DNA of 64,000 bases, taken from Nocardioidaceae bacterium (lineage in GTDB: Bacteria; Actinomycetota; Actinomycetes; Propionibacteriales; Nocardioidaceae). The position numbers and the translations under genes were made by a program. The notes under the pieces are model-generated. The model was given only the letters and a program-made list of their open reading frames with translations. It ran no database searches and had not been told where the DNA came from. The stretch lies in NCBI GenBank assembly GCA_030447865.1, contig JAUJOD010000003.1, positions 253,099-317,098 of the forward strand. The letters are read 5' to 3'. Shown in pieces: positions 9,324-29,757 of the stretch; within the stretch, counting starts at the first letter, position 1; each line of letters opens with the position of its first letter.

Positions 9324-9392
9324 ACTGATCAGAGACGTCCCCGACGCCAGCATGAGACAGACACAACCTCCCTCGACACGAAAGCGACGACA

Positions 9393-10418
9393 ATGACGAC
9401 AACCCGCACAACACCGCGCGGCAGAGCGACCATGGTCGCGGCGGTGACATCCGCCTCGGCACTCCTCACCGCGGCGTGCGGTGGCGGCGACGACGACGCT
9501 CCAGCCGGCGACGGTGGTCTGGAGCCGGTGTCGGTGCGCCTCAACGTCGACGCGACCGGCACCCATGCCCCGTTGATGTTGGCGCTCGAGAATGGCTGGT
9601 ACGAGGAAGAGGGGCTGGATGTCGAGTTCGGCGAAGGCAACGGTTCGGACTCCACCGTCGCCCTCATCGACGCCGGCGACGACGACATCGGCCTTGCGGG
9701 CTTCGACGCCGTGGCGGTGCTACGGGGTCAAGGCGCCAACGTAAAGGTCATCGGCGGCTGGGAGCAGCGCAGCCCGCTCGCCATCGTGACGGATGAAGGA
9801 AGCGACATCGACGAGCCGACCGACCTGGAAGGCGCCACCGTCGTCATGGACCAAGGAGACATCCCACTGTTCGAGGCCTACGCGGCCAGGGCAGGCATCG
9901 ACGCAGACGCGGTCAACACCGTCACGATGGGGGAGGCCGCCCAGTCGGCCGCGCTCGCGGCTGGACGCATCGACGGCATCCTCGGGTGGACCACCTACCA
10001 CGCGCCCCAGGTCGCCGAGCTCACCGGGGGCGTGCAGTCCATCTTGTGGTCAGACTCCGACTTCGAGCTGATGAACCTCGCCATCATCGCCAGCGACGAG
10101 GGCATCGAGAACGACTCAGAAACCCTGTGCGGGTTCGTGCGGGCGTCGTACAAAGGACTCGAGGCGGCCCAGGATGACCCCGACGCGGCCATCGACGCGA
10201 TGCTGAAGAGCTTCCCCAACGTCAACCCCACCATCGCCCGCGGGCAGCTGGTGAACATGTTCGACCTGCTCGTCACAGACGACACGCAGGGCAAGCCCCT
10301 TGGTTGGGTCGCTGAGTCCGACGTCGCCGAGGCGATCGACGTACTGTCCGACGCGGGAGAGCCGATCGAGGTACAGCCCGAAGACCTGTACGACAACGTC
10401 TGCTTCCCGGATGCATAG
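9393..10418 (+). CDS. ABC transporter substrate-binding lipoprotein (NMT1/THI5-like)
   Basis: The 341-residue protein has a lipoprotein signal with lipobox LTAAC (Cys29) and an Asp/Gly-rich linker, then an NMT1/THI5-type binding fold (TGTHAPLMLALENGWYEEEG near the start, ATVVMDQGDIPLFEAYAARA in the middle). This family binds thiamine-pyrimidine precursors, nitrate, sulfonates, riboflavin and aromatic acids. The ligand is therefore open, although the neighbouring amidohydrolase suggests a compound degraded by C-C or C-N hydrolysis or decarboxylation. It lies 69 bases after the permease and 15 bases before the hydrolase. Confidence 0.9.
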   Translation: MTTTRTTPRGRATMVAAVTSASALLTAACGGGDDDAPAGDGGLEPVSVRLNVDATGTHAPLMLALENGWYEEEGLDVEFGEGNGSDSTVALIDAGDDDIGLAGFDAVAVLRGQGANVKVIGGWEQRSPLAIVTDEGSDIDEPTDLEGATVVMDQGDIPLFEAYAARAGIDADAVNTVTMGEAAQSAALAAGRIDGILGWTTYHAPQVAELTGGVQSILWSDSDFELMNLAIIASDEGIENDSETLCGFVRASYKGLEAAQDDPDAAIDAMLKSFPNVNPTIARGQLVNMFDLLVTDDTQGKPLGWVAESDVAEAIDVLSDAGEPIEVQPEDLYDNVCFPDA

Positions 10419-12605: not shown

Positions 12606-12831
12606 GAGAAACATACTCGTACGTGACGTGCCGGATGACCTGCACGCCACCTTGCAACAGCGTGCCCAACGCAGCGGACAGTCGTTGCAGCAGTACCTGA
12701 TCTCCGAACTCCATCGGCTAGCCGAGCGTCCAACGCTGGAGGAAGTGTTGTCCGAGATCGCAACCCGGCAGGGAGGCCGCATCGGCTTGGCCCAAGCCGT
12801 CGACGACCTCCGGCAGGACCGCGACCGTTGA
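12604..12831 (+). CDS. VapB-type ribbon-helix-helix antitoxin (module 1)
   Basis: A 75-residue FitA/VapB-like protein. RNILVRDVPDDLHATLQQRA is the DNA-binding ribbon-helix-helix start, and SGQSLQQYLISELHRLAERP is the second helix. The tail (LEEVLSEIATRQGGRIGLAQ) would bind the PIN toxin. The start at 12604 is chosen because the -10 and palindrome end there; no ribosome site exists, so the message is likely leaderless. The stop overlaps the toxin start by four bases. It should neutralise the next gene's product and repress its own promoter through the 21-bp palindrome. Confidence 0.85.
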   Translation: MRNILVRDVPDDLHATLQQRAQRSGQSLQQYLISELHRLAERPTLEEVLSEIATRQGGRIGLAQAVDDLRQDRDR

Positions 12832-13229
12832 TCGTGGTGGATGCATCCGTGCTCGTCAACGCCGTTGGCGACGACGGACCCGACGGTGAGACGGCGCGGA
12901 CCGCTCTGGCTGGTGCGGAGGGGCTTAGCGCGCCAGATCTGGCTGACGTCGAGACTGCGGCGGTGCTCCGTAAGCATTGGCTCACGGGTGACATCACCGA
13001 GGCCCGGTTCGACGAGGCGGTGGCCGACCTGACCCGCCTCCCGGTTCACCGGTATCCAACGCTGCCGTTCCTCAGCCGCGCGGCGCAGCTCAAGGCGAAC
13101 GTCACCATGTACGACGCCGTGTACATCGCTTTGGCAGAAGCCCTTGACTGTCCGCTCGTCACGGCAGACGCCAGGCTCCTCACCGCACCGGGAATCCGTT
13201 GCTCGGTCGAGCTCATCAGCCAGCGGTGA
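12828..13229 (+). CDS. VapC PIN-domain ribonuclease toxin (module 1)
   Basis: The 133-residue PIN protein has the expected acidic quartet positions: VVDASVLVNAV, VETAAVLRKHWL, MYDAVYIALAEAL and LVTADARLL. PIN-family VapC toxins cut tRNA or rRNA with Mg2+ and stop translation when the antitoxin is degraded. The TTG start overlaps the vapB stop (TTGA), giving coupled expression. Its length is normal and no active-site residue seems missing, so the module is probably functional. The RNA target cannot be predicted. Confidence 0.88.
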   Translation: MIVVDASVLVNAVGDDGPDGETARTALAGAEGLSAPDLADVETAAVLRKHWLTGDITEARFDEAVADLTRLPVHRYPTLPFLSRAAQLKANVTMYDAVYIALAEALDCPLVTADARLLTAPGIRCSVELISQR

Positions 13230-13261: not shown

Positions 13262-13657
13262 TCAGCCTGCGGCCGCCTGGAGGTTGGTGTGGGAGAAGTC
13301 GTCACCCTTGAACAGCAAAGGCTCGTTCGTGGCTGCTGCCAAGGCGTAAGCAAAGCAGTCACCGAAGTTGAGCCCCGCCGGATGGCCGCTGCCCTTGCCG
13401 AAGTCCCGGTACGCCGCGCGGGCGATGCGGGCATGCTCGGCGGTGGTGTCCACGATGTCTATGCCGAGAGCCTCGATGAGCTCGTCGAGACGCCGCGACT
13501 TCACCGGGTCGCCCAAGTCGTCGACGACCAAGGCGGTTTCGAGGAAGGTGGCCGCAGCCATCCGGGCGCCTGCTGACTCGATGATCATTCGGGTGAACGC
13601 CGCCTGCTCAGGCTCGCCCGTCAGAATGGCGATGATCGCGGAGGTATCGACGATCAC
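13262..13657 (-). CDS. VapC PIN-domain ribonuclease toxin (module 2)
   Basis: The 131-residue PIN protein begins MIVDTSAIIAILTGEPEQAA and keeps the later acidic sites (FLETALVVDDL, FGDCFAYALAAATNEPLLFK, GDDF). The group resembles the mycobacterial VapC proteins paired with Rv0623-type VapB. The GTG start overlaps the antitoxin TGA by four bases. It is convergent with module 1, and only 32 bases separate the two toxin ends. The fold and active site look intact. Confidence 0.88.
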   Translation of the reverse strand: MIVDTSAIIAILTGEPEQAAFTRMIIESAGARMAAATFLETALVVDDLGDPVKSRRLDELIEALGIDIVDTTAEHARIARAAYRDFGKGSGHPAGLNFGDCFAYALAAATNEPLLFKGDDFSHTNLQAAAG

Positions 13658-13911
13658 GCCAGCAGGCCGCGATCGTCGTACAGCAGGTCGGTCGACAGGC
13701 GGGCGCGATCCTCTGCCGACAGCCGCCGGTCGAAGTCAGCTGCGATGTCGAGCGCTGCTGCGACCCGGTCGCCTGGGTCGGATGTGCGCTCGAGGTCGGC
13801 GAGCAGCGTGCTGAGCGCTTCCTCGATGACGCTCGTCTGCGACTTGCCCGTCCGCCGGGCTGCCTCGCGGGCAAGGGAGTGCACGCGCTCGCTCTTTATG
13901 TTCAAGCTCAC
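13654..13911 (-). CDS. VapB antitoxin of the Rv0623/PSK type (module 2)
   Basis: An 85-residue antitoxin starting MSLNIKSERVHSLAREAARR, then TGKSQTSVIEEALSTLLADL, the pattern of PSK-type transcription factors paired with PIN toxins. The C-terminal acidic stretch (DFDRRLSAEDRARLSTDLLY) is the toxin-binding part. The start is a GTG at 13911, preceded by GAGAGGTG about seven bases upstream, so this module differs from the leaderless ones. A GGTA-N6-TACC inverted repeat lies at 13938-13951 and may be the operator. Confidence 0.85.
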   Translation of the reverse strand: MSLNIKSERVHSLAREAARRTGKSQTSVIEEALSTLLADLERTSDPGDRVAAALDIAADFDRRLSAEDRARLSTDLLYDDRGLLA

Positions 13912-13937
13912 AGTGCTACACCTCTCTACCCCCAGAT

Positions 13938-13951
13938 GGTATAAGTCTACC
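13938..13951 (-). promoter_or_regulatory. Possible operator of vapBC module 2
   Basis: GGTATAAGTCTACC is an inverted repeat (GGTA, six bases, TACC) about 27 bases upstream of the vapB GTG. A second GGTAGA copy sits closer to the gene on the minus strand. A role as autorepressor site is inferred from position. Confidence 0.4.
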
Positions 13952-14022
13952 TCCGGATCAGCTCGGCGGGGCCAAGGGTCATGCTTCGCACTGCACGTCG
14001 GGAGACGCTCTAAGTTGAGCCA

Positions 14023-14997
14023 ATGACACCTGCTGGGAGCAAGACGCCTTCTGTAGAGCTCGAGGTAGGTCACCGCACGGTGCGGATCTCCAACCCCGAC
14101 CGGGTCTACTTCCCCGCGACCGGCGCGACCAAGCTCGACCTCGCCAACTACTACCTGAGCGTCGGCGACGGCATCGTCCGAGCACTGCGGGAGCGGCCCT
14201 GCATGCTGCACCGCTTCCCCGACGGTGTCGGCGGTGAGAAGGTCCACCAGAAGCGGCTGCCGCAGGGAGCGCCGCCCTGGATGGAGACCGTCCGTGTGCA
14301 CTTCCCTCGGTACGGCCGGCACGCCGACGAGCTGTGCGTCACCGAGCTGGCCCATGTGATTTGGGCGGTGCAGATGTCGACCGTCGAGTTCCACCCCTGG
14401 AACTCCCGACGTGCCGACACCGAGCGGCCCGACGAGTGGCGGATCGACCTCGACCCGATGCCGCAGTGCAGCTTCGACACGGTCCGGCGGGCGGCGCACG
14501 TCAGCCACGAGGTGCTCGACGAGCTCGGTGCCGTCGGGTGGCCGAAGACCTCCGGCGGGAATGGCCTGCACGTGTACGTGCGGATCGAGCCGCGGTGGGG
14601 GTTCGCCGACGTACGCCGCGCAGCGCTGGCGTTCGCGCGTGAAGTGGAGCGGAGGTCAGCCGGTGACGTGACCACCACCTGGTGGCGCAAGAACCGAGCG
14701 CCTGACCAGCTGTTCGTCGACTACAACCAGAACGCGCGGGACCACACCATCGCCTGCGCCTATTCGGTGCGCGGCACGCCCAATGCGACGGTCTCCACAC
14801 CGATCACCTGGGACGAGGTCGACGACGTACTGCCCGCCGACTGCACGATCGCGACGGTCCCTGACCGGTTCGCCAAGCTCGGCGACGTACACGAGGGCAT
14901 CGACGACGCGGTCTTCTCGTTGGAGCCGCTGCTGGAGTGGGCAGCCCGAGACGAGCGCGAGGGTGAACCGGAGCCGCCGCCCGTCAACGGGGAGTAG
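14023..14997 (+). CDS. Stand-alone LigD-type polymerase (PrimPol-like) domain protein
   Basis: The 324-residue protein is the archaeo-eukaryotic primase-like polymerase domain of bacterial NHEJ. Motif I is RIDLDP (catalytic Asp142 and Asp144), motif II is SGGNGLH (177-183), and motif III is FVDYNQN (Asp233). Such proteins fill gaps and add ribonucleotides at broken ends, usually with Ku and the ligase domain of LigD. Neither Ku nor a ligase domain is in the window, so this is a separate polymerase like mycobacterial PolD1. TAAGTT lies six bases before the ATG, so the message is probably leaderless. It is followed by a decayed sigma-factor locus in convergent orientation. Confidence 0.9.
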   Translation: MTPAGSKTPSVELEVGHRTVRISNPDRVYFPATGATKLDLANYYLSVGDGIVRALRERPCMLHRFPDGVGGEKVHQKRLPQGAPPWMETVRVHFPRYGRHADELCVTELAHVIWAVQMSTVEFHPWNSRRADTERPDEWRIDLDPMPQCSFDTVRRAAHVSHEVLDELGAVGWPKTSGGNGLHVYVRIEPRWGFADVRRAALAFAREVERRSAGDVTTTWWRKNRAPDQLFVDYNQNARDHTIACAYSVRGTPNATVSTPITWDEVDDVLPADCTIATVPDRFAKLGDVHEGIDDAVFSLEPLLEWAARDEREGEPEPPPVNGE

Positions 14998-16660: not shown

Positions 16661-17230
16661 TTAGGCTGCGGGCTGCACCTGAACGGCGGAGACCTCGAAC
16701 TCGAGCGTCACCTTGTCGCCCACGAGGACGCCGCCGGTCTCCAACGGGGCGTTCCACTCCACGCCCCAGTCGCGGCGGTTGACCGTGGTCGAGCCCTCGA
16801 AGCCGAGCCGAATGTTGCCGTACGGGTCCTTGGCCGAGCCGGCGTACTCGAAGTCGACCGTCACCGGCTTGGTGGCGCCCTTGATGCTCAGGTCACCGGT
16901 AACCCGGTAGTGCTCGTCGTCGAGCTTCTCGACCGACGTGGACGTGAAGGTGATCTGCGGGTGGTTGGGTACGTCGAAGAAGTCGTTGGTGCGCAGGTGG
17001 CCGTCGCGCTGCTCGTTGCGAGTGTCGACGCTGTTGGCTTCGATTGTGATTTCGAGCGTCGACGCCTCTGGGTCGCTGAAGTCGAGGTGCGCCTTGCCCT
17101 CGAACTGGTTGAACTGCCCGCGGACTTTGGTGACCATCGCGTGGCGCGCCACGAACCCGATGCGGCTGTGCGCGGCGTCAAGGGTGTAGTCACCGGTCAG
17201 GATCTCGGGATCCAGGGTCTGTACGGTCAT
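16661..17230 (-). CDS. YceI family protein
   Basis: A full-length 189-residue YceI/lipocalin-like protein. It opens with GDYTLDAAHSRIGFVARHAM, contains the conserved stretch NEQRDGHLRTNDFFDVPNHP, and ends with RRDWGVEWNAPLETGGVLVG. The family binds polyisoprenoid or other amphiphilic molecules in a lipocalin barrel and is often induced by redox or antibiotic stress. There is no signal peptide, so this copy is cytoplasmic, as is usual in actinobacteria. GAGAGGAAG provides the ribosome site. A 15-bp palindrome just upstream suggests repression by a MarR-type regulator, which is not encoded nearby. Confidence 0.93.
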   Translation of the reverse strand: MTVQTLDPEILTGDYTLDAAHSRIGFVARHAMVTKVRGQFNQFEGKAHLDFSDPEASTLEITIEANSVDTRNEQRDGHLRTNDFFDVPNHPQITFTSTSVEKLDDEHYRVTGDLSIKGATKPVTVDFEYAGSAKDPYGNIRLGFEGSTTVNRRDWGVEWNAPLETGGVLVGDKVTLEFEVSAVQVQPAA

Positions 17231-18040: not shown

Positions 18041-18602
18041 CAAGTGACAGCCTGATGCATCGGCCGGACTCAGTCTGCTCCTTAGCGGCGTACGTCGCCC
18101 GCTCCGGGTCCGGCGGCACCCAGCCACCAGCAGGCTCGGGGCAGGCAGCCACCGGCGTCTCGTCGTCAGCGGCGGGCTCGTCGGTTGCATCGTCTGGCGA
18201 CGTCGGCGGCTCGGTGAGCGTGAAGACGCCGTCGGCGAACCGGCCGGTCACGGTGTAGTGGCCCCACGTCGTACCGTTCACCGTCTCAGCGCGTACGGCG
18301 TCCCAGTTCCACCCTTCGACGTCTGGGCCGCTGCACTGGGGTGGGTACGACCTCAGCACGGCGGAGCACAGTTGCGGCCCGTGGTCGGGGCTCTCCAGGA
18401 CGGTGAGGGTCGCGCGGAACCGGCCGTCGTACCCCGCTGGCACGATGCCATCGGGCAGGTCGTCGCCGCCGTCCGCAGCGGGCGGCGCTGCCACAGCCCG
18501 CGAGTCGTCGTCGGAAGCCCGCTGGGTGGTGCCGCAGCCGGTCACCACAGCGAGCGGCAGGACGAGCGCCGTCGCCGAAGCGACGATCCGAGGTATCTGC
18601 AC
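18027..18602 (-). CDS. Unrecognised lipoprotein, probably truncated at the C-terminus
   Basis: From a GTG at 18602 the 191-residue product begins with a signal peptide ending in a lipobox-like VVTGC (MQIPRIVASATALVLPLAVV, then TGC). A Ser/Asp/Ala-rich linker and a folded domain with PQLCSAVLRSYPPQCSGPDV follow. The family is not one I can name, although similar hypothetical lipoproteins occur in Nocardioides-type genomes. The last dozen residues (ESGRCIRLSLVVML) are encoded by the promoter region of vapBC module 3. The native 3' end was therefore probably replaced when the TA module inserted. Divergent from the ERCC4-type nuclease. Confidence 0.6.
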   Translation of the reverse strand: MQIPRIVASATALVLPLAVVTGCGTTQRASDDDSRAVAAPPAADGGDDLPDGIVPAGYDGRFRATLTVLESPDHGPQLCSAVLRSYPPQCSGPDVEGWNWDAVRAETVNGTTWGHYTVTGRFADGVFTLTEPPTSPDDATDEPAADDETPVAACPEPAGGWVPPDPERATYAAKEQTESGRCIRLSLVVML

Positions 18603-18672
18603 GCCGCTAAGACGTCCGCGGCGCGTTGACCATTCCCTGCTATCACGCGCCAACTGTCGCAGACTGGTGACC

Positions 18673-19680
18673 GTGGTCGACGACTTCGTGATCGCGCGCA
18701 ACCCCGAGGAGGGTTCGACGCTGCCCTACCTGCTGCGCATTCCGCTCGGCGCAGCGGGCGTCGTACTCAAGTCGCGTGAGACCTGGCCGCGCACCAGCAA
18801 GGTGTACTGCCACCGCGCGATCGAGTGGCCGGCGGACGCCGACGTCATCGAGCGGGTGCCGGTGCGGGCCTGTGTACGCCGTGGCGCGGCGATCGATCTG
18901 GTGCTCGACCGCGGCCGCGAGAACCGGTCGCAGTTCGTCCTCACCCGTATCCGCGGCGGCCGGGAGGCGGTGTTCTGGCAGACCGCCCGAACGGCCAAGC
19001 AGGCGCGGCCCAACGTGGCCGTACCCGGCGCCCGGGCGTCGGGGCTCAGCGAGCTCGAGATCGTGGTCGACAACCGCGAGCGCTACGCCTACACCTTCGC
19101 CAAGCAGCAGGCCACGACGAGCCGGGGCCGGCTCGACGTCGGCGACTACGGCGTCGTCCTCGACGGGCACCTCGTAGCGTCCGTCGAACGCAAGACCCTG
19201 GCCGACCTCGTGTCCACGCTGACCAGCGGCAAGCTCAAGTACCTCCTCGGAGAGCTCGCTGCGCTGTCCCGGGCGGCCGTGGTGGTCGAGGACCGCTACT
19301 CAGCCGTGTTCAAGCTCGACCGGGTGCGTCCGGCCGTGGTCGCCGACGGGCTCGCTGAGGCGCAGGTGCGCTGGCCGAACGTCCCGATCGTCTTCTGCGA
19401 CACCCGGGCGCTGGCGGAGGAGTGGACGTTCCGGTTCCTGGGGGCAGCCGCCGTCGTGCTCGACGAGGAGCCGGGCGCCGAGGCGTTCGAGGCGACGCTG
19501 TCGGAGCCGCCACCGCTGCCGGCCCCGCAGCCGACGGTCTCAGAGGTACGCCGCTGGGCGGTCGACGCCGGCTACCCAGTCTCTGATCGGGGACGCATCC
19601 GCGCCGAGATCCATGCCGCCTACCGACACGCCCACGGCATAGGTGCGACCGACGACGTCCGAACCTCAAGCCGGGGTTGA
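18673..19680 (+). CDS. ERCC4-type nuclease fused to an Lsr2-like DNA-binding domain
   Basis: A 335-residue protein. Residues 1-120 form an N-terminal domain (DDFVIARNPEEGSTLPYLLR start). An ERCC4/XPF-type nuclease core follows, with DNRER at 133-137, GDY at 157-159 and ERK at 172-174 in VERKTLADLV, the signature metal and catalytic residues of this family. The C-terminus (about 290-321, VRRWAVDAGYPVSDRGRIRA) matches the AT-hook-like DNA-binding domain of the nucleoid protein Lsr2. It should cut structured or AT-rich DNA; the biological role is not established. A GTG two codons upstream (18667) is an alternative start. It precedes the recCBD operon on the same strand. Confidence 0.85.
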   Translation: MVDDFVIARNPEEGSTLPYLLRIPLGAAGVVLKSRETWPRTSKVYCHRAIEWPADADVIERVPVRACVRRGAAIDLVLDRGRENRSQFVLTRIRGGREAVFWQTARTAKQARPNVAVPGARASGLSELEIVVDNRERYAYTFAKQQATTSRGRLDVGDYGVVLDGHLVASVERKTLADLVSTLTSGKLKYLLGELAALSRAAVVVEDRYSAVFKLDRVRPAVVADGLAEAQVRWPNVPIVFCDTRALAEEWTFRFLGAAAVVLDEEPGAEAFEATLSEPPPLPAPQPTVSEVRRWAVDAGYPVSDRGRIRAEIHAAYRHAHGIGATDDVRTSSRG

Positions 19681-19920
19681 GGGCGAGAGTGCGGAGGATC
19701 CGATGCACCTCGCACTGTCTGCGGCTAAGCCTGTCAAGAGGCGATCAGGTCACGCAGATGCTGCTCGAGTGCGGATGGTGACGCGCGTTCGTTGGCGTGG
19801 CCGACGGGCGGTGGTGGTCTGCTGGGTCCGAACGAGGCATCGGGGGAGCGGATCGACCCGCTGGCTTTGTCGGCGCGTCGCCGTATGGTCACGACATGAA
19901 CTGCGGCGAGGTGGCATGAG

Positions 19921-22900
19921 GTGCTGACCGTTCATCGCGCGGAGCGGGCGGATGCGTTGGGGATCGGGCTCGGCGGGCTGCTCGGCGCCATACCGGCCGA
20001 CCCGTTCGTGCCGGACATCGTGGCGGTGCCGTCGAAGGGTGTGGAGCGCTGGATCGCTCAGTCGCTCTCCGCGTCGTTGGGCGCCGAAAACGGCGAGACG
20101 GACGGCGTGTGCGCGAACGTTGACTTCCGTTCACCGAGCCGGCTCGTCCGTGAGGCCCTCGTCGAAGCCACCGGAGTAGACCCGGATGACGATCCGTGGG
20201 CGCAGAACCGGCTGCCCTGGGCGCTGCTGGAGGTCATCGACGACTGCGCCGGCCAGGACTGGTGCCGCACCCTCGGCCGACACCTTGGACTAGTCGAGGG
20301 TGGCGTCAACCGCGGTCGGCGCATGACGGTCGCGCAAAAGCTGGCCGGGCTCTTCACGGCGTACGCCGCCGAGCGCCCCACCATGCTCACCGACTGGCAG
20401 ACCGGAGATGACACCGACGGGTACGCCGGCCCGATCGACGCCGACCAGGCTTGGCAAGCGGAGCTTTGGCGTCGCGTGCGGCGGCACATCGACACCGCGA
20501 GTCCGGCGGAGCGGTTGTACCCCGCATGCCAGCGACTGCGTCAGGAGCCGGAGTTGGTCGACCTCCCCGAGCGGTTGTCGATCTTCGGGCCGACGAGGCT
20601 GACAACCGCTCAGCTCGTCGTACTGGACGCGTTGGCGGTGCATCGCGATGTGCATCTGTGGTTGCCATTTCCCTCCGACGGGTTGTGGCGGCGGCTTGCG
20701 GACGTGGTCTCGACAGGCTCGACCACCGTCTCGACTCGGCGGGAGGACCCGATGGCGGAGGCGCCGGCTCACCCGCTGCTGCGGTCGCTCGGCCGGGACG
20801 CTCGGGAGATGTACGTGCGCCTTCATGCGCACGCCAGCGCGGCGGCCGACGAACATCTGCCCGTCACGACAACGGCTAGCGGCACGCTCCTTGGAGCTCT
20901 GCAAGACGACCTGCGCGCCGACCGGGCACCCACCGGCTGGCACGCCTTGGCAGACAACGACACGACTGTGCAAGTCCACGCCTGCCACGGGCGCCACCGG
21001 CAAGTCGAGGTGCTGCGCGAGGTGTTGCTGGGCCTGCTCTCCGACGACCCCACGCTCGAGCTTCGCGACATCATCGTGATGTGCCCCGACATCGACGCCT
21101 ACGCGCCGCTGATCAGCGCCAGCCTGGGGCTTGAAGTCCTCGACGACTCCGACGACCCGACGGCCGCGGCGCAGGTCCACCCCGGACACCGGCTCACATT
21201 CCGGCTGGCCGACCGTTCGCTGCGACAGACCAATCCGGTGCTCGACGTCGTCGCCCGGCTGTTGGAGCTCGCCGACTCGCGCCTCACCGCTTCGGAGGTC
21301 CTTGACCTCGCGGCCATGCAGCCGGTGCGACGCCGGTTCCGGTTCGACGAGGAGGCGCTGGAACGTATCGGTGACTGGGTACGCCGCGCCGGCGTCCGCT
21401 GGGGGCTCGACGCGCCGGCCCGTGCCGGCTACGGCCTCATCGGCGTCGGGCAGAACACCTGGTCCCACGGGCTCGACCGCCTGCTCGCCGGCGTCGCGAT
21501 GGATGAGGAGGACCTCCGCCTGGTCGGCTCCGCCCTTCCGCTCGACGACATTGACAGCACCGAGATCGACCTGGCCGGCCGGCTGGCTGAGCTGCTCGAC
21601 CGGCTCGACGCCACGATCGCGGCACTCCGACAGGAGCAGCCGCTCGAGGCCTGGCTGCAGGCACTCACCGAAGCCGTCGACCTGTTCACCGACGTGACAC
21701 TGCGCGACGCCTGGCAGATCACCCAGGCCAACGCCACGCTCGCCGGTGCCGCCGCCTCCGCGCACGACGGGGCCGCTGGCCGCGTGCTCGCCTTGTCCGA
21801 CGTACGGGCGCTGCTGCGTGATCGCCTGCGCGGACGCCCCACCCGCGCCAACTTCCGCACCGGCCACCTCACCGTGTGCACGATGGTGCCGATGCGGTCG
21901 GTGCCGCATCGCGTCGTCTGCCTGCTCGGCCTCGACGACGGTGTGTTCCCGCGCAGCACCAGCATCGACGGTGACGACATCCTCGCCCGCTCGCCGCGGG
22001 TGGGGGAGCGCGACCGGCGGTCGGAGGACCGGCAGCTGTTCCTCGACGCGATCTTGGCGGCCAAGGAGCGCCTGATCATCCTCTACACCGGCGCGGACGA
22101 ACGCACCGGTGCCGAGCGGCCGCCCGCGGTCCCGCTCGGCGAGCTGCTCGACGTACTCGACCGCACGGCCAGCGTGCCGCGGTGCCGGGCCCGCGACCGA
22201 GTGCTGGTGCGCCATCCGCTGCAGCCGTTCGACCCACGCAACTTCACGGTCGGGGAGCTGGCGGCGAGCGCTCCGTTCAGCTTCGACAAGGCGTCGTACG
22301 CCGGCAGCGTCGCTCGACAGCTTGGCCAAAGTGAGCCGCGGCCCTTTCTCGACGGACCGCTGCCCGAGCTTCAGCAGACCGACGCGGTCGAGCTCGAGAA
22401 GCTGATCCGGTTCTTCGAGCACCCGGTCCGCGCCTTTTTGCGCGAGCGGCTCGAGCTGCGCACCGCCGACGAGGAGGACGAGCCGTCCGACGCCATCCCC
22501 GTCTGCCCCAGCAAGCTGGAGGAGTGGGCCGTCGGTGACCGGCTGCTGCGAGCCGGCCTCGCGGGCCTGCCCGTCGACGACGCCCGGCAGGTGGAGCGGC
22601 TGCGCGGCGAGCTCCCACCGGGCACGCTCGGCGGCTCAGTCCTCCAGCCCATCGCCGGCAACGTCGCCGCAGTGCTCGACAAGAGCACCGGCCTGCGCAC
22701 GGGCGAGCCCAACACCGCGGACGTTTCGATCATTCTGCCGTCGGGCACGCGTCTCGACGGGTCGGTGCCGCGGGTGTACGGCGACCGCGTCGTCCGCATC
22801 GAGTACTCCCGGCTGTCGGCGAAGCACCGCATCCGGGCCTGGCTGCAGCTGCTCGCCCTCTGCGCACACGACCCCGGCACGTCGTGGCGGGCCGTCGCCG

Positions 22901-23316
22901 TCGGCCGGGGGGACAGGAAGAATCCGGTGATCGGGTCCTTCCTGACCGGTCCGTCCGCCGACGTCGCTGGCGAGCACCTCGACACGCTCGTCCGCCTCTA
23001 CCGGTTGGGGTTGACCAGGCCGCTTCCGGTGCCGCCAAAAACAGCCTGCGCCTACGCCGACAAGCGCCGCACCGGCACCAACCCACGCAACGCGGCGGCC
23101 CTCGCCGGCAAGGAGTGGGAGACCAAGGGCCAGGGCAATCACGCCTACGGGGAGTTCGACGACGGCGACCACCGGCGAGTGCGGCTGACGACGCTGAGCG
23201 ACCTGCTGGCGGAGCCGGCGTACCCCGAAGAGGACTACGCCGACGAGCCGCACCGCTTTGGGCAACTGGCCCGCACGATCTGGACACCGCTGCTCGAGGC
23301 GGAGGTCATCGAATGA
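19921..23316 (+). CDS. recC: Exodeoxyribonuclease V subunit gamma (RecC)
   Basis: The 1131-residue product is full length for actinobacterial RecC. It contains the inactive SF1-helicase-like and nuclease-like folds that scan for the regulatory sequence. Segments such as FVPDIVAVPSKGVERWIAQS, LHLWLPFP-type turns, MVPMRSVPHRVVCLLGLDDG and FPRSTSIDGDDILARSPRVG are typical of RecC. The GTG start has a GAGGTGG element upstream. It forms an operon with recB (ATGA overlap) and recD (GTGA overlap). RecBCD repairs double-strand breaks and degrades linear phage DNA. Many actinobacteria use AdnAB instead, so the presence of RecBCD is worth noting. Confidence 0.93.
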   Translation: MLTVHRAERADALGIGLGGLLGAIPADPFVPDIVAVPSKGVERWIAQSLSASLGAENGETDGVCANVDFRSPSRLVREALVEATGVDPDDDPWAQNRLPWALLEVIDDCAGQDWCRTLGRHLGLVEGGVNRGRRMTVAQKLAGLFTAYAAERPTMLTDWQTGDDTDGYAGPIDADQAWQAELWRRVRRHIDTASPAERLYPACQRLRQEPELVDLPERLSIFGPTRLTTAQLVVLDALAVHRDVHLWLPFPSDGLWRRLADVVSTGSTTVSTRREDPMAEAPAHPLLRSLGRDAREMYVRLHAHASAAADEHLPVTTTASGTLLGALQDDLRADRAPTGWHALADNDTTVQVHACHGRHRQVEVLREVLLGLLSDDPTLELRDIIVMCPDIDAYAPLISASLGLEVLDDSDDPTAAAQVHPGHRLTFRLADRSLRQTNPVLDVVARLLELADSRLTASEVLDLAAMQPVRRRFRFDEEALERIGDWVRRAGVRWGLDAPARAGYGLIGVGQNTWSHGLDRLLAGVAMDEEDLRLVGSALPLDDIDSTEIDLAGRLAELLDRLDATIAALRQEQPLEAWLQALTEAVDLFTDVTLRDAWQITQANATLAGAAASAHDGAAGRVLALSDVRALLRDRLRGRPTRANFRTGHLTVCTMVPMRSVPHRVVCLLGLDDGVFPRSTSIDGDDILARSPRVGERDRRSEDRQLFLDAILAAKERLIILYTGADERTGAERPPAVPLGELLDVLDRTASVPRCRARDRVLVRHPLQPFDPRNFTVGELAASAPFSFDKASYAGSVARQLGQSEPRPFLDGPLPELQQTDAVELEKLIRFFEHPVRAFLRERLELRTADEEDEPSDAIPVCPSKLEEWAVGDRLLRAGLAGLPVDDARQVERLRGELPPGTLGGSVLQPIAGNVAAVLDKSTGLRTGEPNTADVSIILPSGTRLDGSVPRVYGDRVVRIEYSRLSAKHRIRAWLQLLALCAHDPGTSWRAVAVGRGDRKNPVIGSFLTGPSADVAGEHLDTLVRLYRLGLTRPLPVPPKTACAYADKRRTGTNPRNAAALAGKEWETKGQGNHAYGEFDDGDHRRVRLTTLSDLLAEPAYPEEDYADEPHRFGQLARTIWTPLLEAEVIE

Positions 23317-26300
23317 CGGAGGCAGACGTCCGGGTCTACGCGCCGCACCAGCCGCTGCCTGAGGGGACGACGGTGCTGGAGGCCAGCGCAGGGACCGGCA
23401 AGACCTACACGATCGCCGGCCTGGCTGCGCGCTATCTCGCCGAGGGCAAGGTGCGGATGAACGAGTTGATGCTCGTGACGTTCGGCCGGGCCGCTACGGC
23501 CGAGCTCCGCGAGCGAGTGCGCGAACGGTTGACTGCGGTGACGGCTGCGCTCGCGGACCCCGCCGCCGCCGCCCGCGGCTCCACCGACGACGTCGTGCGC
23601 CTACTGGCCGACGCGCCCGACGACGAGGTACGGCGGCGGCACCGGCGGCTGGCCAGCGCTGTCGCCGACTTCGACGCCGCGACGATCGCCACCACGCACG
23701 GCTTCTGCTCGCAGATGCTCGCCGGGCTAGGCATCGCCGCCGACCTCGACTCCGACGTGACGTTCGCCGAAGCTACCGGCGACCTGGTGCTTGACGTCGC
23801 CACCGACCTCTTCGTCGCCGACTACGGGCGCGACGACAGCCCGCTGCCACCCGACGGCATGGCGTTCGGCGCGGCGGCCGGCCTCACTGCCGGCGCGGTC
23901 GGCGACTCGGCCGCCCGGCTCGAGCCACACGACGCCGAGCCGGGGCCCGCGCGCACGCGCTACGAGTTCGCCAAGCGCGCGAGCGACGAGGCTGCCCGGC
24001 GGAAGCGAGCCATGCGGGTGATGGACTACAACGACCTGCTGACTTACCTGCGCGCGGCGCTCATGCACCCGGAGACCGGCGAGGAGGCGTGCCAGCGCAT
24101 CCGCGCCCGCTACCAGATCGTGCTCGTCGACGAGTTCCAAGACACTGACCCACTGCAGTGGGACATCCTCGAGCGGGCTTTCCACGGCCACCGCACGCTG
24201 ATTCTGGTCGGCGACCCGAAGCAGGCGATCTACGCGTTTCGGGGCGCCGATGTCGTCACCTACCTGCAGGCCAAGCGGGCCGCGGTCGGCGAGGCCACGC
24301 TCGGCACCAACTGGCGCAGCGACCAGCCGCTCGTGCAGGGGCTGCGGCACCTGCTCGGTGACGCCGCGCTCGGCGACCCCCGCATCCGGCTGTACGACGT
24401 CAACGCCGCACACCGCGAGCCCTCCCTGCTCGGGGCTCCAGTAGCCGCGCCGGTGCGCTTGCGCCGAGTGCCGCGGGCGGAGTTCGACGAGTCGACCTCG
24501 GCCAAGCTCACGGTGGCTAAGGTGCGGCCGTTCGTCGCGCGAGACGTCGCCGCCGACATCGTCCGGCTGCTGGGGTCCGGCGCCGAGCTCGTCGAGCGCG
24601 ACGGCGTACGCCGACCGCTGGAGGCGGCCGACGTGGCGGTACTGGTGCAGCGCAACGACACCGGCGCCGCCGTACGAGACGCGCTGGCCGCGGTCGACGT
24701 ACCCGTCGTGCTCACGGCGACCAGCTCGGTCTTCGCCTCCGAGGCGGCGCGGGAATGGCTCGACCTGCTCACCGCACTGGAGCAGCCGCAGCGCACCGGG
24801 CTCGCCCGCAACGCCGCGCTGACGAGCTTCATCGGCTGGACCGCCGTCCAGCTGGCCACGGCCACCGAGGCGCAACAGGAAGTGCTCGGCGCCCAGCTGC
24901 GTCGGTGGGCGGAGACGCTCACCGACACGGGCGTCGCCGCGCTGATGGAGGCGGCGACCGCCACCGGGTTGGCGGAGCGGGTGCTGGCGCGCGACGACGG
25001 TGAGCGCGACCTCACCGACCTGCGACACATCGGGCAGGCGCTGCACCAGGCCCGCACCGAGGGGTACGCTGGCGTGTCGTCGCTGGTTCAGTGGCTGCAG
25101 CACCGGATCGCCGAGGCCGGCGACGACATCGACGAGGAACGCAGTCGGCGGCTCGAATCCGACGCCAAGGCGGTGCAGGTCATGACGATCTGGCGAGCCA
25201 AGGGGCTGGAGTTCCCGGTCGTCTACGCGCCCTTCCTCTGGGACCGCTGGGTCGGCGGCAATCCCGAGCAGCTGCGGTCGCACGACGATGTCGGGCGCGT
25301 GCTTGACGTCGGCGGGCCGACCGGGCCGTGGTACGCCGAGCGCCGAGCCGCCCACAACGCCGAAGACGCGGGGGAGTCGCTGCGGCTGGCCTACGTGGCG
25401 CTGACGCGCGCCCGGTCACAGGTGATCGCGCATTGGGCGCCGACCAACAACACGCCGGGCGGGCCGCTGCACCGGCTGCTGTTCGGGGAACGGTCCGACG
25501 GGGGAGCGGTGCCCGACTCGGTCCCGGTGCCCGACGAGAACGGCGCCCGCGAGCAGCTCGAACGGCTGGCCGCCACATCGGGTGGGCTGGTGAGCGCGGA
25601 GCAGCCCGGACCGGTGGCGACGGAGCCGTTGACCGCTCCCGGCCCGGCGGCGGTCGACATGTCGGTGCGCGACTTCGACCGGGGGCTCGACACGGCGTGG
25701 CGGCGGACGTCGTACACCGGGATCACGGCGGGGCTGCACGAGGCGTCCGCCGCGACGGTGGCGGTGAGCGAGCCGGAGACGCCCGGCATCACCGACGAGC
25801 CCCCCGACCGGCCCGAGGTGGAGGCGGACGAGCCCGCCGATGCACCAGCCGCCCCGGTGTCGCCGATGGCGGACTTGCCGTCGGGGGCGGCGTTCGGAAC
25901 GCTCGTGCACACGGTGCTCGAGCGCACGGACTTCGCGACTCCCGACCTGTCCGCGGCACTACAGGCGGCGGCTGCCGCGGAGGACTCTGAGCGGTTCGGC
26001 GCCACACCGCCGGCCGAGCTGGCGCAGGCGTTGCTGCCGTCGCTGCATACCGCGCTCGGGCCGCTGGCTGCCAACCGGCGCCTGGTCGACATCGCGAAGT
26101 CCGATCGGCTCGACGAGCTCGACTTCGAGCTGCCACTGGTCGGTGGCGACGTCCCGACTGGTGAGGCAAGAGTGCGCCAGGTCGCCGCTCTGGTACGCCG
26201 CCACCTCCCGCCCGGCGACCTCCTCCAGGGGTACGCCGACGACCTCGACGTGCCGCTGATCGCCGGTCGCAGCCTGCGGGGCTATCTGGCCGGCAGCATC

Positions 26301-26687
26301 GACGCGGTTCTGCGGGTGCGGGACGCCGGCACCGGGACGCCGCGCTACCTCGTCGTCGACTACAAGACGAACTGGCTCGGCGGGGGCGATCAGCTGACGG
26401 CGTACGACTATCGGCCCGAGGCGATGGCGCGCGAGATGCGGCACGCGCACTACCCTCTGCAGGCGCTGCTGTACTGCGTGGCGCTGCACCGCTACCTGCG
26501 CTGGCGGCAGCCCGGCTACGACCCCGAGCAGCATCTCGGTGGGGTGCTCTACCTCTTCCTGCGCGGCATGTGCGGGCCGGAGACTCCGGTGGCCGACGGC
26601 ACGTCGTACGGCGTCTTCTCGTGGTCACCGCCGGCGGCCTTGGTCACCGACCTGTCGGACCTGCTGCACCGAGGGGCGTCGTCGTGA
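23313..26687 (+). CDS. recB: Exodeoxyribonuclease V subunit beta (RecB), helicase-nuclease
   Basis: About 1124 residues. Walker A ASAGTGKT is at 24-31, the SF1 motif VLVDEFQDTD is in the middle of the first half, and VGDPKQAIYAFRGADV follows as motif III. MTIWRAKGLEFPVVYAPFLW and LAYVALTRARSQV are motifs V and VI. The C-terminal nuclease domain has the conserved LVVDYKTNWLG (about 1013-1022), supplying the catalytic Asp and Lys. RecB is the 3'-to-5' motor and the sole nuclease of the complex. The stretch between residues 170 and 235 looks somewhat shorter than in Escherichia coli. The start overlaps recC by four bases. Confidence 0.95.
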   Translation: MTEADVRVYAPHQPLPEGTTVLEASAGTGKTYTIAGLAARYLAEGKVRMNELMLVTFGRAATAELRERVRERLTAVTAALADPAAAARGSTDDVVRLLADAPDDEVRRRHRRLASAVADFDAATIATTHGFCSQMLAGLGIAADLDSDVTFAEATGDLVLDVATDLFVADYGRDDSPLPPDGMAFGAAAGLTAGAVGDSAARLEPHDAEPGPARTRYEFAKRASDEAARRKRAMRVMDYNDLLTYLRAALMHPETGEEACQRIRARYQIVLVDEFQDTDPLQWDILERAFHGHRTLILVGDPKQAIYAFRGADVVTYLQAKRAAVGEATLGTNWRSDQPLVQGLRHLLGDAALGDPRIRLYDVNAAHREPSLLGAPVAAPVRLRRVPRAEFDESTSAKLTVAKVRPFVARDVAADIVRLLGSGAELVERDGVRRPLEAADVAVLVQRNDTGAAVRDALAAVDVPVVLTATSSVFASEAAREWLDLLTALEQPQRTGLARNAALTSFIGWTAVQLATATEAQQEVLGAQLRRWAETLTDTGVAALMEAATATGLAERVLARDDGERDLTDLRHIGQALHQARTEGYAGVSSLVQWLQHRIAEAGDDIDEERSRRLESDAKAVQVMTIWRAKGLEFPVVYAPFLWDRWVGGNPEQLRSHDDVGRVLDVGGPTGPWYAERRAAHNAEDAGESLRLAYVALTRARSQVIAHWAPTNNTPGGPLHRLLFGERSDGGAVPDSVPVPDENGAREQLERLAATSGGLVSAEQPGPVATEPLTAPGPAAVDMSVRDFDRGLDTAWRRTSYTGITAGLHEASAATVAVSEPETPGITDEPPDRPEVEADEPADAPAAPVSPMADLPSGAAFGTLVHTVLERTDFATPDLSAALQAAAAAEDSERFGATPPAELAQALLPSLHTALGPLAANRRLVDIAKSDRLDELDFELPLVGGDVPTGEARVRQVAALVRRHLPPGDLLQGYADDLDVPLIAGRSLRGYLAGSIDAVLRVRDAGTGTPRYLVVDYKTNWLGGGDQLTAYDYRPEAMAREMRHAHYPLQALLYCVALHRYLRWRQPGYDPEQHLGGVLYLFLRGMCGPETPVADGTSYGVFSWSPPAALVTDLSDLLHRGASS

Positions 26688-28555
26688 CGGCCGTGGCCGC
26701 GGAGTCGGTGGAGCTCGCGCTACGGGCTGAGGGGCAGTTGGCTCAGTTCAACCGAGCCGGCGTGCTGACCAGTGCCGACGTGCACGTCGCCCGACGGTTG
26801 CAGCGGTTGTGCGCGGAGAACGACGAGCGGGTGCTGCTGGCGGCGGCGCTGGCGGTGCGCGCCGTACGCCACGGGTCGGTGGTGTTGGAGCTGGGTGACG
26901 TTGCGCAACGCGTGGCCACCGAGGGACTGACGGTCGACGGAGCCCTTCCGTGGCCCGACGCTGACGACTGGGTCGCCGCTGTAGAGCACAGCCCGCTGGT
27001 GACGGTCGGCACAAACGGACCTCCCGACCGACCGCTGCGGTGGGTCGACGGACTGCTCTACCTCGACCGCTACTGGCGGCAGGAGCGGGTCGTCGCGGCG
27101 CACGTCGACGCAGCGGTGCTCGCACAACCGCTGACGCCCGACCCAGAGCGGCTGGACGCCGCGCTGCGACGGCTCTTCCGGTCAGAGCAAGCGGACCGCC
27201 AGCGGCTCGCGGCGTACGTCGCCGCGCACCGCAGGTTCAGCATCGTCGCCGGCGGGCCGGGCACGGGCAAGACGACGACGGTGGCGCGGCTGCTCGCCGT
27301 CCTGCAGGACCTCGCAGATGGCGCGCTCCGGATCGCCCTCGCCGCACGGACGGCAGTGGCCGCGGCGCGGATGACGACGGCGGCAGCAAGCGAGGTGGCC
27401 GACTTCGCGCTGCCCGACCAAGAACGCATCGGAAGGCTCAGCGCATCGACACTGCACCGCCTGCTCGGCAACCGGCACGGCGAGCGCACCAGGTTCTGGT
27501 ACAACCGCGACAACCGGTTGCCCTACGACGTAGTGGTCGTCGACGAGGCCTCGATGGTGTCGCTGACGCTGATGTCGCGGCTGATCGAGGCGCTGCGGCC
27601 AACGTGTCGGCTGATCCTCGTCGGCGACCCGAACCAGCTCTCCTCGATCGAGGTCGGCGCGGTGCTCGGCGACCTGGTGCAGCGCGCGGCGCCGCCGGGC
27701 GTCGTACCGCTCGCGGTGGACACAGCGCACGTGGGCCGAGACCTCGAAGACCTGTCGGTCGACGAGCAGCACGCGGCGCGAACCGTCGGGATGGTCAGCC
27801 TGACGAAGGTGCACCGCTTCGGCGGGCAGATCCAGCAGCTCGCCGAGGCCATCCGGCACGGCCACAGCGACGAGGTGCTCGGGTTGCTGGCCGGAGGTCA
27901 CGGTGACATCGAGTACATAGACCTCGACATCGCATCAGCGGAGAGTGACCTCGCGACGCTGCGGGTCGACGTACGCCAGGCCGGCCGGACGCTCATCGCC
28001 GCTGCCCGCGACGGCCACGCGGAGGATGCCCTAGCGGCGCTCGGGAAGCACCGCGTGCTGTGCGCCCACCGGGAGGGACTGTACGGAGTGACGCACTGGA
28101 GCAAGCAGGTGCAGGACTGGCTCAGCGACGCCGTGGACGGCTACGCCAGCGACGGGTTCTGGTACGTCGGCCGGCCGCTGCTCGTCACGTCGAACGACTA
28201 CCAGCTGCGGTTGTTCAACGGCGACACCGGCGTGATCGTGAGCTCCGACGGTCAACCGCGAGCCGCCTTCTGGCGCGACGGGGTGCTCGACCTGCTCGCG
28301 CCGAGCCGACTGGGCGACGTACAGACCGTGCACGCGATGTCGATCCATCGCAGCCAAGGCAGCCAGTTCGACAGGGTCAGCATCGTGCTGCCGCCGGCAG
28401 GGTCGCCGTTGCTGACGCGGGAGTTGCTCTACACGGCGGTGACGCGCGCCAAGGAGCACGTGCGGATCATCGGCACCGACGCGGCTGTCCGGGCGGCCGT
28501 CGACCGGCGCATTAACCGAGCCAGCGGCCTCAATCGGGGGAGCAGCCAGCCATGA
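26684..28555 (+). CDS. recD: Exodeoxyribonuclease V subunit alpha (RecD)
   Basis: A 623-residue 5'-to-3' SF1B helicase. Walker A GGPGTGKTTTV is near residue 190, Walker B-type VVVDEASMVSLTLMSRLIEA near 284, and motif VI-like SPLLTRELLYTAVTRAKEHV near the C-terminus. The N-terminal ~150 residues form the RecB-binding domain. The GTG start overlaps the recB stop (GTGA). The ATG of the downstream VapC remnant region is also at its end, but that locus is not functional. Together with recB and recC it encodes the complete exonuclease V. Confidence 0.95.
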   Translation: MTAVAAESVELALRAEGQLAQFNRAGVLTSADVHVARRLQRLCAENDERVLLAAALAVRAVRHGSVVLELGDVAQRVATEGLTVDGALPWPDADDWVAAVEHSPLVTVGTNGPPDRPLRWVDGLLYLDRYWRQERVVAAHVDAAVLAQPLTPDPERLDAALRRLFRSEQADRQRLAAYVAAHRRFSIVAGGPGTGKTTTVARLLAVLQDLADGALRIALAARTAVAAARMTTAAASEVADFALPDQERIGRLSASTLHRLLGNRHGERTRFWYNRDNRLPYDVVVVDEASMVSLTLMSRLIEALRPTCRLILVGDPNQLSSIEVGAVLGDLVQRAAPPGVVPLAVDTAHVGRDLEDLSVDEQHAARTVGMVSLTKVHRFGGQIQQLAEAIRHGHSDEVLGLLAGGHGDIEYIDLDIASAESDLATLRVDVRQAGRTLIAAARDGHAEDALAALGKHRVLCAHREGLYGVTHWSKQVQDWLSDAVDGYASDGFWYVGRPLLVTSNDYQLRLFNGDTGVIVSSDGQPRAAFWRDGVLDLLAPSRLGDVQTVHAMSIHRSQGSQFDRVSIVLPPAGSPLLTRELLYTAVTRAKEHVRIIGTDAAVRAAVDRRINRASGLNRGSSQP

Positions 28556-28850: not shown

Positions 28851-29282
28851 CTAGAGCAGCGGCTCGACATCGACGCCGAGCTGGCGGTAGGTCCCCAACG
28901 CCCGAGGATCGCTGGTGACAAGAGGCAAGCCGTGCTCAGCCGCGGCCGCGCCAACGAGCGCGTCATGGACAGACCCACCGGCGATGTTGCGCCGGGGAAG
29001 TGAGGCGAGCAGGCGCCCGGTGGCCTCGGGACCCAGGTATCGCGTGTGCGGAAAGTTGGTCTGAATGAGTTCGACCGCGGTGGCGGGGCTCAAGCGGCTC
29101 GCCGCCGGCAGCCTCGTCAGCACAGAGAACGTCTCGAAGGTGGCGTGCCCGGCAAGACCAAGGTCACGATCGGCCAAAGCCTCGAACACCAGGTCGTGTT
29201 GCGTGTGATCACTGACCAAGAAAGCAATGGCAACGCTGGTGTCCAGCAGACATGACGGAGCGCTAGCGCTGGTCGAGGTCAC
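28851..29282 (-). CDS. VapC PIN-domain ribonuclease toxin (module 4)
   Basis: The PIN protein, about 143 residues, has LLDTSVAIAFLVSDHTQHDL, HATFETFSVLTRLPAASRLS, SVHDALVGAAAAEHGLPLVT and the final Asp in SDPRAL. The GTG at 29282 is chosen as start because it lies inside the end of the antitoxin gene (20-base overlap). The longer upstream extension encodes an unnatural Arg-rich sequence antisense to nothing known and is ignored. Catalytic residues look intact. Confidence 0.83.
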   Translation of the reverse strand: MTSTSASAPSCLLDTSVAIAFLVSDHTQHDLVFEALADRDLGLAGHATFETFSVLTRLPAASRLSPATAVELIQTNFPHTRYLGPEATGRLLASLPRRNIAGGSVHDALVGAAAAEHGLPLVTSDPRALGTYRQLGVDVEPLL

Positions 29283-29499
29283 GCAGAACCTGTACGTCGT
29301 CAGGACCCAGCGTCGCGCCGCTGCTGCTGGCAACCACGAGACGTCCCTTCCTGGTCGAGAGATCGCCCAACGCGACCGGCTGGACTCGCAGACCCGCCCC
29401 GTCCGCGTGCACATCCACCACGCCAGGGGAGAGCCCTAGCCGGTCCCGGAGTTCCTTGGGGATAACCAGCCGTCCTGCCTTATCAATGGTTGCTCGCAT
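29263..29499 (-). CDS. AbrB/SpoVT-type antitoxin of VapC module 4
   Basis: The 78-residue protein MRATIDKAGRLVIPKELRDR has the swapped-hairpin AbrB DNA-binding fold used by MazE- and VapB-type antitoxins. A toxin-binding tail (GPDDVQVLRDLDQR) follows. The ATG at 29499 is preferred because a -10-like TATCGT lies six bases upstream and an 11-bp inverted repeat brackets the start codon. The gene overlaps its toxin. It uses a different DNA-binding fold from modules 1-3, so this module was acquired independently. Confidence 0.82.
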   Translation of the reverse strand: MRATIDKAGRLVIPKELRDRLGLSPGVVDVHADGAGLRVQPVALGDLSTRKGRLVVASSSGATLGPDDVQVLRDLDQR

Positions 29500-29694: not shown

Positions 29695-29757
29695 GTGGCG
29701 GCGCGAGCCAGCTCTCAGTTGGCGACGGATCCCCGTCTCCGACATAGAGTTGGCCGA

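Follow-up and report, generated by a model that had tools for sequence, protein, structure and literature searches.

In a 64,000-nucleotide stretch of DNA from a Nocardioidaceae bacterium (assembly GCA_030447865.1, contig JAUJOD010000003.1, forward-strand positions 253,099 to 317,098; hereafter the window), a gene on the forward strand at 18673-19680 encodes a protein of 335 amino acids that is made up of three parts: a domain with a predicted fold like that of the LigD 3'-phosphoesterase, an ERCC4 nuclease domain and an Lsr2 DNA-binding domain. The frame is open throughout, and its GTG start codon fits the conserved N-terminus of relatives ('DDFVIARNP' or similar). The N-terminal domain spans residues 1-109 (18673-18999, +) and lacks the metal-binding histidines of the phosphoesterase whose fold it is predicted to share. 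It is followed by the nuclease domain at residues 128-266 (19054-19470, +; PF02732), by a linker at residues 275-288 (19495-19536, +) that connects the tail to the long helix with which the nuclease domain ends, and by the Lsr2 DNA-binding domain at residues 289-321 (19537-19635, +; PF23359), which bears an RGR triplet at 306-308. Against Pfam-A, ERCC4 is matched at residues 132-254 (E 5e-15, 56.1 bits against a cut-off of 24) and Lsr2_DNA-bd at residues 290-320 (E 1.3e-10, 40.9 bits against a cut-off of 26.9); both scores are far beyond chance.

An earlier note on this DNA had called the nuclease signature (DNRER, GDY, ERK) intact and the C-terminus an Lsr2 DNA-binding domain; the residues are indeed present, and the profile search that it asked for finds both domains. 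The survey that it proposed found the fusion in dozens of genomes. What the note missed is a third, strongly conserved domain at residues 1-110, and the real finding at this locus would be a three-part ERCC4 enzyme with a previously unrecognised LigD-like domain, as predicted from an AlphaFold2 model of the full protein (predicted local distance difference test, pLDDT, 87). The model was built on an alignment of 35 sequences, namely the window's and those of 34 loci among L004-L050, from which near-copies and truncated, frameshifted or N-containing loci had been excluded. The gene is the single ERCC4 gene of the window's genome. A scan of 18300-20100 found no sigma-70-type promoter and no terminator, which is uninformative in a GC-rich actinobacterium.

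The catalytic residues of the nuclease domain are located at D133/E136, at D158 of the GDY motif and at E172-R173-K174. D133, E136 and D158 are present in every one of 68 aligned members of the family, among them the window's copy, and the E-R-K motif in 67 of the 68, the single miss being a gap. In the model, residues 127-265 align to Hef (1j22, 1j24) at Z 15.6-15.8 and to archaeal XPF (2bhn, 2bgw) at Z 15.9-16.3, with deviations of 2.1-2.3 Å over 127-129 residues, and profile matches to solved chains were obtained for Hef (1j22, E 4.4e-9) and human XPF (E 2.5e-5). The predicted fold of this region is that of an XPF-type nuclease. ERCC4 nucleases are dimers that cut branched DNA, and cutting of structured DNA by the protein is plausible by homology to Hef and XPF. 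Neither a double helix-hairpin-helix domain, (HhH)2, nor a helicase domain was matched in Pfam, and the 335-residue model leaves no room for either; the Hef profile model itself scores only 35 bits against a cut-off of 610.

The domain in front of the nuclease is matched by no profile of Pfam or NCBIfam (residues 1-113), and it holds 25 of the 48 positions that are invariant across the 35 sequences. In the full-length model, residues 2-109 align to the LigD phosphoesterase 3p43 at Z 10.3 (103 residues, 2.8 Å), with a Foldseek E-value of 3.6e-4. Modelled alone, residues 1-118 (pLDDT 87) gave a Foldseek E-value of 9.8e-4 to the same chain and Z-scores of 11.0 (3p43), 10.2 (3p4h), 8.7 (3n9b), 8.7 (3n9d) and 8.2 (5dmp), the next fold among the chains compared reaching just Z 3.7. 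A LigD 3'-phosphoesterase fold (PF13298; 3n9b, 3p43, 3p4h, 5dmp) is accordingly predicted for residues 1-109. Conservation of this domain is also visible in substitution proportions, which were taken from six of seven pairs tried (L055/L057 was left out): nonsynonymous proportions (pN) of 0.02-0.07 stand against synonymous proportions (pS) of 0.13-0.48, and pN/pS is the lowest of the protein in five of the six pairs, the exception being L026/L033, in which the nuclease domain is lower.

The active site of the known enzyme appears not to be retained. In Pseudomonas aeruginosa, manganese is bound by His42, His48 and Asp50, according to a review (PMC8656161), and in a weak alignment N10, P18, L20 and R22 stand opposite His42, His48, Asp50 and Arg52 of that enzyme. 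Unlike the LigD 3'-phosphoesterase, the window's protein thus shows no aligned His-His-Asp and no profile match, and none of the histidines in its N-terminal domain is invariant or nearly invariant among the 35 sequences. An active phosphoesterase of the LigD type was considered and is thought unlikely because, in that weak alignment, the metal ligands are missing. When compared with the sequences of solved structures, the profile of the domain yields a chance antibody match alone (E 0.32).

The tail, in turn, is matched by profile to solved Lsr2 chains (2kng, 6qkp; Lsr2 chains E 8e-6). The model predicts two helices in it (289-298 and 311-320), and neither helix nor strand in the linker at 275-288. 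Its basic triplet R306-G-R308 reads [RKT]-G-[RK] in all 39 tailed members, the window's included (38 of the tree described below plus L038), and R293, W295, A296 and G307 are present in all 39 as well. In the six pairs, pN values of 0.09-0.18 against pS values of 0.23-0.66 indicate purifying selection on the tail; relative to the linker (here residues 263-287), the ratio is clearly lower in three pairs, about equal in two and higher in one. The protein resembles the Lsr2 silencer in this RGR-bearing C-terminal domain and differs from it in the absence of the N-terminal domain PF11774, which has no match up to E 10. Lsr2 DNA-binding domains occur at three places in the window's genome, the ERCC4 gene among them; the normal Lsr2 is a 125-residue frame on contig C3, and a 62-residue frame with such a domain lies at C6:81155-81256 (L003). 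RefSeq names the nuclease proteins of L090 and L092 'histone-like nucleoid-structuring protein Lsr2', which misleads.

With a Q/RGR motif, Lsr2 domains contact AT-rich DNA in its minor groove (PMC6936261), and the earlier note had suggested that the fusion may steer cutting to AT-rich foreign DNA, or to structured DNA; the former reading makes it a defence nuclease. The conserved triplet of the tail agrees with that reading, and so does the occurrence of the Lsr2 protein: among 35 of 36 hosts searched (L029 was left out), a PF11774 protein was detected in 23 of the 29 that have a tailed copy and in none of the 6 with an untailed one, and tail and Lsr2 therefore tend to co-occur. This correlation may simply follow lineage. 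The six tailed hosts in which no Lsr2 was found, all of them metagenome assemblies by title that may be incomplete, speak on the other side and suggest that the tail is independent of the Lsr2 protein.

Relatives of the gene were found at 47 loci in the genome contigs searched, all actinobacterial by title. In a survey of the phylum, 59 of 396 genomes match at E 0.001 and 36 at E 1e-30 or better, the remainder being tail-only or fragment matches; 8 of these 36 carry the tail. In a survey of the class, 23 of 296 genomes have a match at E 1e-20, partial or split in four cases (G535, G539, G553, G557), and of the 25 genomes from the window's own family 5 carry a match, which is partial in two. 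Disrupted copies also occur, through either mutation or assembly error: L045 is frameshifted between the N-terminal domain and the nuclease (~8363), L032 is frameshifted before the tail (~8771), and L050 (8001-8234) has lost most of the gene through internal deletion.

Beyond position 262, relatives fall into two length groups, with 3-23 and 55-81 further residues. A tree of the core only, comprising 65 rows, 63 of them distinct (L040/L061 and L046/L071 are identical pairs, evidently from the same genomes), parts 38 tailed from 27 untailed rows by one branch with a support of 100/99; it excludes the near-copies L023 and L044, the window duplicates L002 and L051, L032 with its frameshifted tail, fragments below 240 amino acids, and L038 (short start), L039 (contig end) and L043 (run of N). 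When five distant relatives serve as the root, the tailed rows stay together on one side of this branch, with the untailed ones forming a paraphyletic remainder; the simplest history is therefore a single gain of the tail. The distant relatives themselves (L082-L086, 32-34% identity), which stem from small actinobacterial genomes, combine the N-terminal domain and ERCC4 with a different C-terminal domain, perhaps a winged helix, to which sub-threshold matches were found in two of the three that were scanned.

The gene is also carried by plasmids: 24 plasmid records match, 22 of them over at least 80% of the protein, and recombinase or transposition genes lie nearby in four of the five plasmid stretches examined. 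On a Rhodococcus plasmid (L092, 2674-7620), the gene stands beside TnsA-like, Mu-type transposase, ATP-binding and TniQ genes. These records, together with the patchy and sometimes broken chromosomal copies, are what would be expected of a gene that serves plasmids or integrated elements in replication, resolution or establishment and has been stranded on chromosomes. Against this stands that the plasmid neighbours otherwise differ, that no integrase or transposase is among the 25 commonest of the 146 Pfam families in the chromosomal flanks, that no relative was found in viral contigs, that phage matches are confined to haloarchaeal viruses and that the six pairs show purifying selection; we consider this role very improbable. 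A phage origin was rejected, the matches in phage records being restricted to ERCC4 proteins of haloarchaeal viruses. These nucleases of tailed viruses resemble the window's protein in the nuclease domain (27-29% identity) and differ in extent, since eight of the ten records match at ~128-256 only, two at 62-253 and none in the tail.

Downstream of the gene lies recCBD on the same strand: recC begins 240 bp further on (19921-23316; TIGR01450, E 1.7e-269), followed by the recB open frame (22884-26687; TIGR00609, E 2.6e-212), whose true start is probably near 23.3 kb, and by recD (26570-28555; TIGR01447, E 3.7e-145). The earlier note had placed the gene immediately before recCBD, which is right for this window; the link to RecBCD that it implied is mostly local. 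Near linkage is seen in the closest relative, L006, in which ERCC4 lies ~1.1 kb from recC, and in L005, in which it lies 3.6 kb behind recD; the distance from recC is ~26 kb in the genome of L004, 19 kb in G392 and 45 kb in G074, so that recC was found within 50 kb in six genomes looked at, the window's included. In addition, recC was detected in 27 of the 29 hosts with a tailed copy, in 3 of the 6 whose copy lacks the tail and, in the class survey, in 17 of 23 ERCC4-positive versus 58 of 273 ERCC4-negative genomes (the surveys for the two genes are taken to cover the same 296 genomes, as number and genome labels agree). From such data one could propose an accessory subunit or helper of RecBCD that is encoded in the recBCD operon. 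The recC excess is, however, largely a matter of lineage, because 18 of 20 ERCC4-negative genomes of the window's family also have recC, and 6 of the 23 ERCC4-positive genomes gave no recC match. Among 30 recC-positive hosts of the fetched loci, the two genes lie within 30 kb in only three; in two they share a contig at a distance of 115 kb or 1.6 Mb, and in 25 they are on different contigs. In four further genomes (G150, G288, G440, G546) they are 0.5-2.5 Mb apart. In L006, a HepT-like/nucleotidyltransferase pair resembling a toxin-antitoxin module (9048-9926, -) lies on the opposite strand between ERCC4 and recC, having either been inserted there or been lost from the window's genome. Since linkage is not constant across genomes, partnership with the RecBCD operon is rejected as a general rule, and a role as RecBCD subunit or helper appears highly unlikely.

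No other gene takes the place of a constant partner. When the open frames of 46 loci and of the window region were all compared with one another, no conserved neighbour or operon partner emerged beyond the gene itself, the next family being present in six loci, and none of the 25 commonest Pfam families in the chromosomal flanks (122 of 124 called genes compared, from 37 loci) occurs more than three times. PADLOC, applied to the 122 flanking genes at E 1e-10, matched 15 models, none of them more than twice, and no control set was used; on the protein itself its sole match, at residues 285-324, is to the final part of a methyltransferase model, which presumably includes such a tail as well. A defence island is unsupported by these scattered matches. 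The targeting of AT-rich foreign DNA suggested in the earlier note is likewise unsupported beyond the tail itself: the patchy distribution would suit a defence gene, but the core occurs without the tail in 27 of the 65 tree rows, the Lsr2 protein was not found in the six metagenome assemblies mentioned above, the gene is itself plasmid-borne and has no fixed neighbour, and we regard a defence nuclease as improbable. As for the remaining genes of the window, PIN-domain toxin-like genes lie upstream (13262-14571, -, and 12828-13229, +), one of them beside an Rv0623-like antitoxin domain, and a further PIN-domain gene lies directly behind recD (28851-29414, -); a protein resembling dual-specificity phosphatases (29695-30378, +) scores under the Pfam cut-off, and a YceI-like protein is encoded at 16661-17230 (-).

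A second repair system with genes near some of the ERCC4 copies is non-homologous end joining (NHEJ) by Ku and LigD. A LigD-type primase-polymerase of the NHEJ family is encoded 3.7 kb upstream of the ERCC4 gene (14023-14997, +; PF21686, E 3.6e-93; TIGR02778 over its cut-off), and in L006 a frameshifted LigD-type primase-polymerase is present at ~1.2 kb. The start of the ERCC4 gene lies ~50 bp from a divergent DNA ligase in L017, followed by Ku and primase-polymerase, and in L021 ~25 bp from a ligD that runs divergently and encodes phosphoesterase and polymerase domains, both distances depending on the start codons that we chose. No further primase-polymerase, Ku or ligase was found in the fetched flanks of the loci. 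A follow-up set of 23 genomes contributed at least one further case within 8 kb among the matches listed, that of G288 (L108), in which ligD ends 4.3 kb from ERCC4 and ku lies beyond. By chance 0.34-0.47 cases would be expected, given ~3 primase-polymerase genes per genome, an assumed genome size of 4.2 Mb and 570 kb of flank, and three independent cases are seen (P 0.005-0.013), a post hoc statistic in that the family was picked out afterwards among 146. Ku was detected in 57 of 65 ERCC4-carrying genome entries searched (G224 and G430 are evidently one genome) and primase-polymerase in 57 of 59, with no background rate measured for either. The window's genome has one Ku match, four LigD-type primase-polymerase matches and no LigD_N phosphoesterase match. 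In cluster J mycobacteriophages, an Lsr2 domain is found on an NHEJ protein in the published Ku-Lsr2 fusion (PMC8612146). Taken with the LigD-like fold, these data make a connection to Ku/LigD repair a lead that deserves experiments, not an established result.

Taken together, a role in the processing of DNA breaks or branched DNA fits best, and the protein looks more like an accessory actinobacterial DNA-repair enzyme than a weapon against foreign DNA. We favour a stand-alone, probably homodimeric endonuclease of the XPF/Hef type that acts in repair by trimming or nicking DNA that is branched or broken, a reading to which we assign a probability of roughly one in two. As a pathway, the processing of ends at double-strand breaks is the most likely, and Ku/LigD end joining is the leading candidate. 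The N-terminal domain, which has lost the phosphoesterase ligands and yet is highly conserved, may read a DNA 3' end or a junction of single- and double-stranded DNA; the ERCC4 domain would then cut beside the bound end or junction, and the Lsr2 tail would grip the neighbouring duplex by its minor groove, much as (HhH)2 does in XPF. The tail could serve as an exchangeable anchor, as some relatives lack it and others end in a different domain that may be a winged helix. In a GC-rich host, one Lsr2 domain per subunit is more likely to act as a weak general anchor than as an address label.

A more specific version of this idea makes the protein an accessory nuclease of Ku/LigD, which would clear 3' flaps or damaged ends and thereby allow LigD to carry out filling and sealing, its LigD-phosphoesterase-like domain having been acquired from the NHEJ ligase and retained for end recognition. 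The fold of the N-terminal domain, the divergent arrangements in L017 and L021, the primase-polymerase genes near the gene in the window and in L006, the ku-ligD pair of L108, the frequency of Ku among hosts and the phage Ku-Lsr2 fusion (PMC8612146) all agree with it, but NHEJ genes are absent from the fetched flanks of most loci, the neighbour statistic and the Ku count carry the limits given above, and the 23 follow-up genomes added at least one case. In this specific form we hold the idea to be rather unlikely. The full combination, an end-joining nuclease with an XPF-type flap or end cutter, a catalytically dead LigD-phosphoesterase fold as end-recognition head and an Lsr2 anchor, strikes us as rather doubtful.

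Several observations weigh against the favoured reading and its link to end joining. The relation to the LigD phosphoesterase rests on predicted structure: PF13298 gives no match to the protein up to E 10, and hhalign of the N-terminal domain profile against eight actinobacterial LigD_N sequences reached P 0.13 over 25 columns, covering the first hairpin only. An NHEJ neighbourhood was seen in just three independent lineages of 44 loci, with at least one case added by the 23 further genomes to make four lineages, and was noticed post hoc, Ku was not detected in 8 of the 65 ERCC4-carrying genome entries, and the nearest repair gene in the window is recC, not an NHEJ gene. The patchy distribution, together with several disrupted or partial copies, moreover shows that the gene is dispensable.

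In order to place the protein among known systems, its architecture can be set against theirs. XPF-type nucleases are familiar chiefly from archaea and eukaryotes, and in archaeal and eukaryotic XPF a (HhH)2 domain comes after the nuclease. The predicted ERCC4 fold and the full catalytic signature are shared with Hef, archaeal XPF, XPF-ERCC1 and Mus81 (Z ~16 to Hef and Aeropyrum XPF). In contrast to XPF and Hef, the window's protein has no helicase domain and carries a predicted LigD-phosphoesterase-like fold at its N-terminus, and in its family the place of (HhH)2 is taken by the Lsr2 domain, by another domain or by nothing. The Ku-Lsr2 proteins of cluster J mycobacteriophages such as Omega and Corndog share with it a C-terminal Lsr2 domain on a DNA-break repair protein, and differ in that the partner is Ku rather than a nuclease and that the fusion is phage-borne (PMC8612146). 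Our literature search retrieved no paper that joins ERCC4 with Lsr2, the ERCC4 domain with Actinobacteria, or the LigD phosphoesterase with Lsr2; the combination of ERCC4 and LigD was not searched.

Altogether, this actinobacterial branch with an intact signature presents an XPF nuclease in a new frame, with a predicted LigD-phosphoesterase-like front and an exchangeable C-terminal domain. If active, the protein would offer a compact XPF model, and it would indicate that Lsr2 DNA-binding domains can anchor repair enzymes, with the phage Ku-Lsr2 as a second case. Activity would also make it testable whether bacterial end joining has a flap nuclease; should the end-joining role prove true, this would be a previously unrecognised enzyme that supplies the flap-trimming step to Ku/LigD repair.

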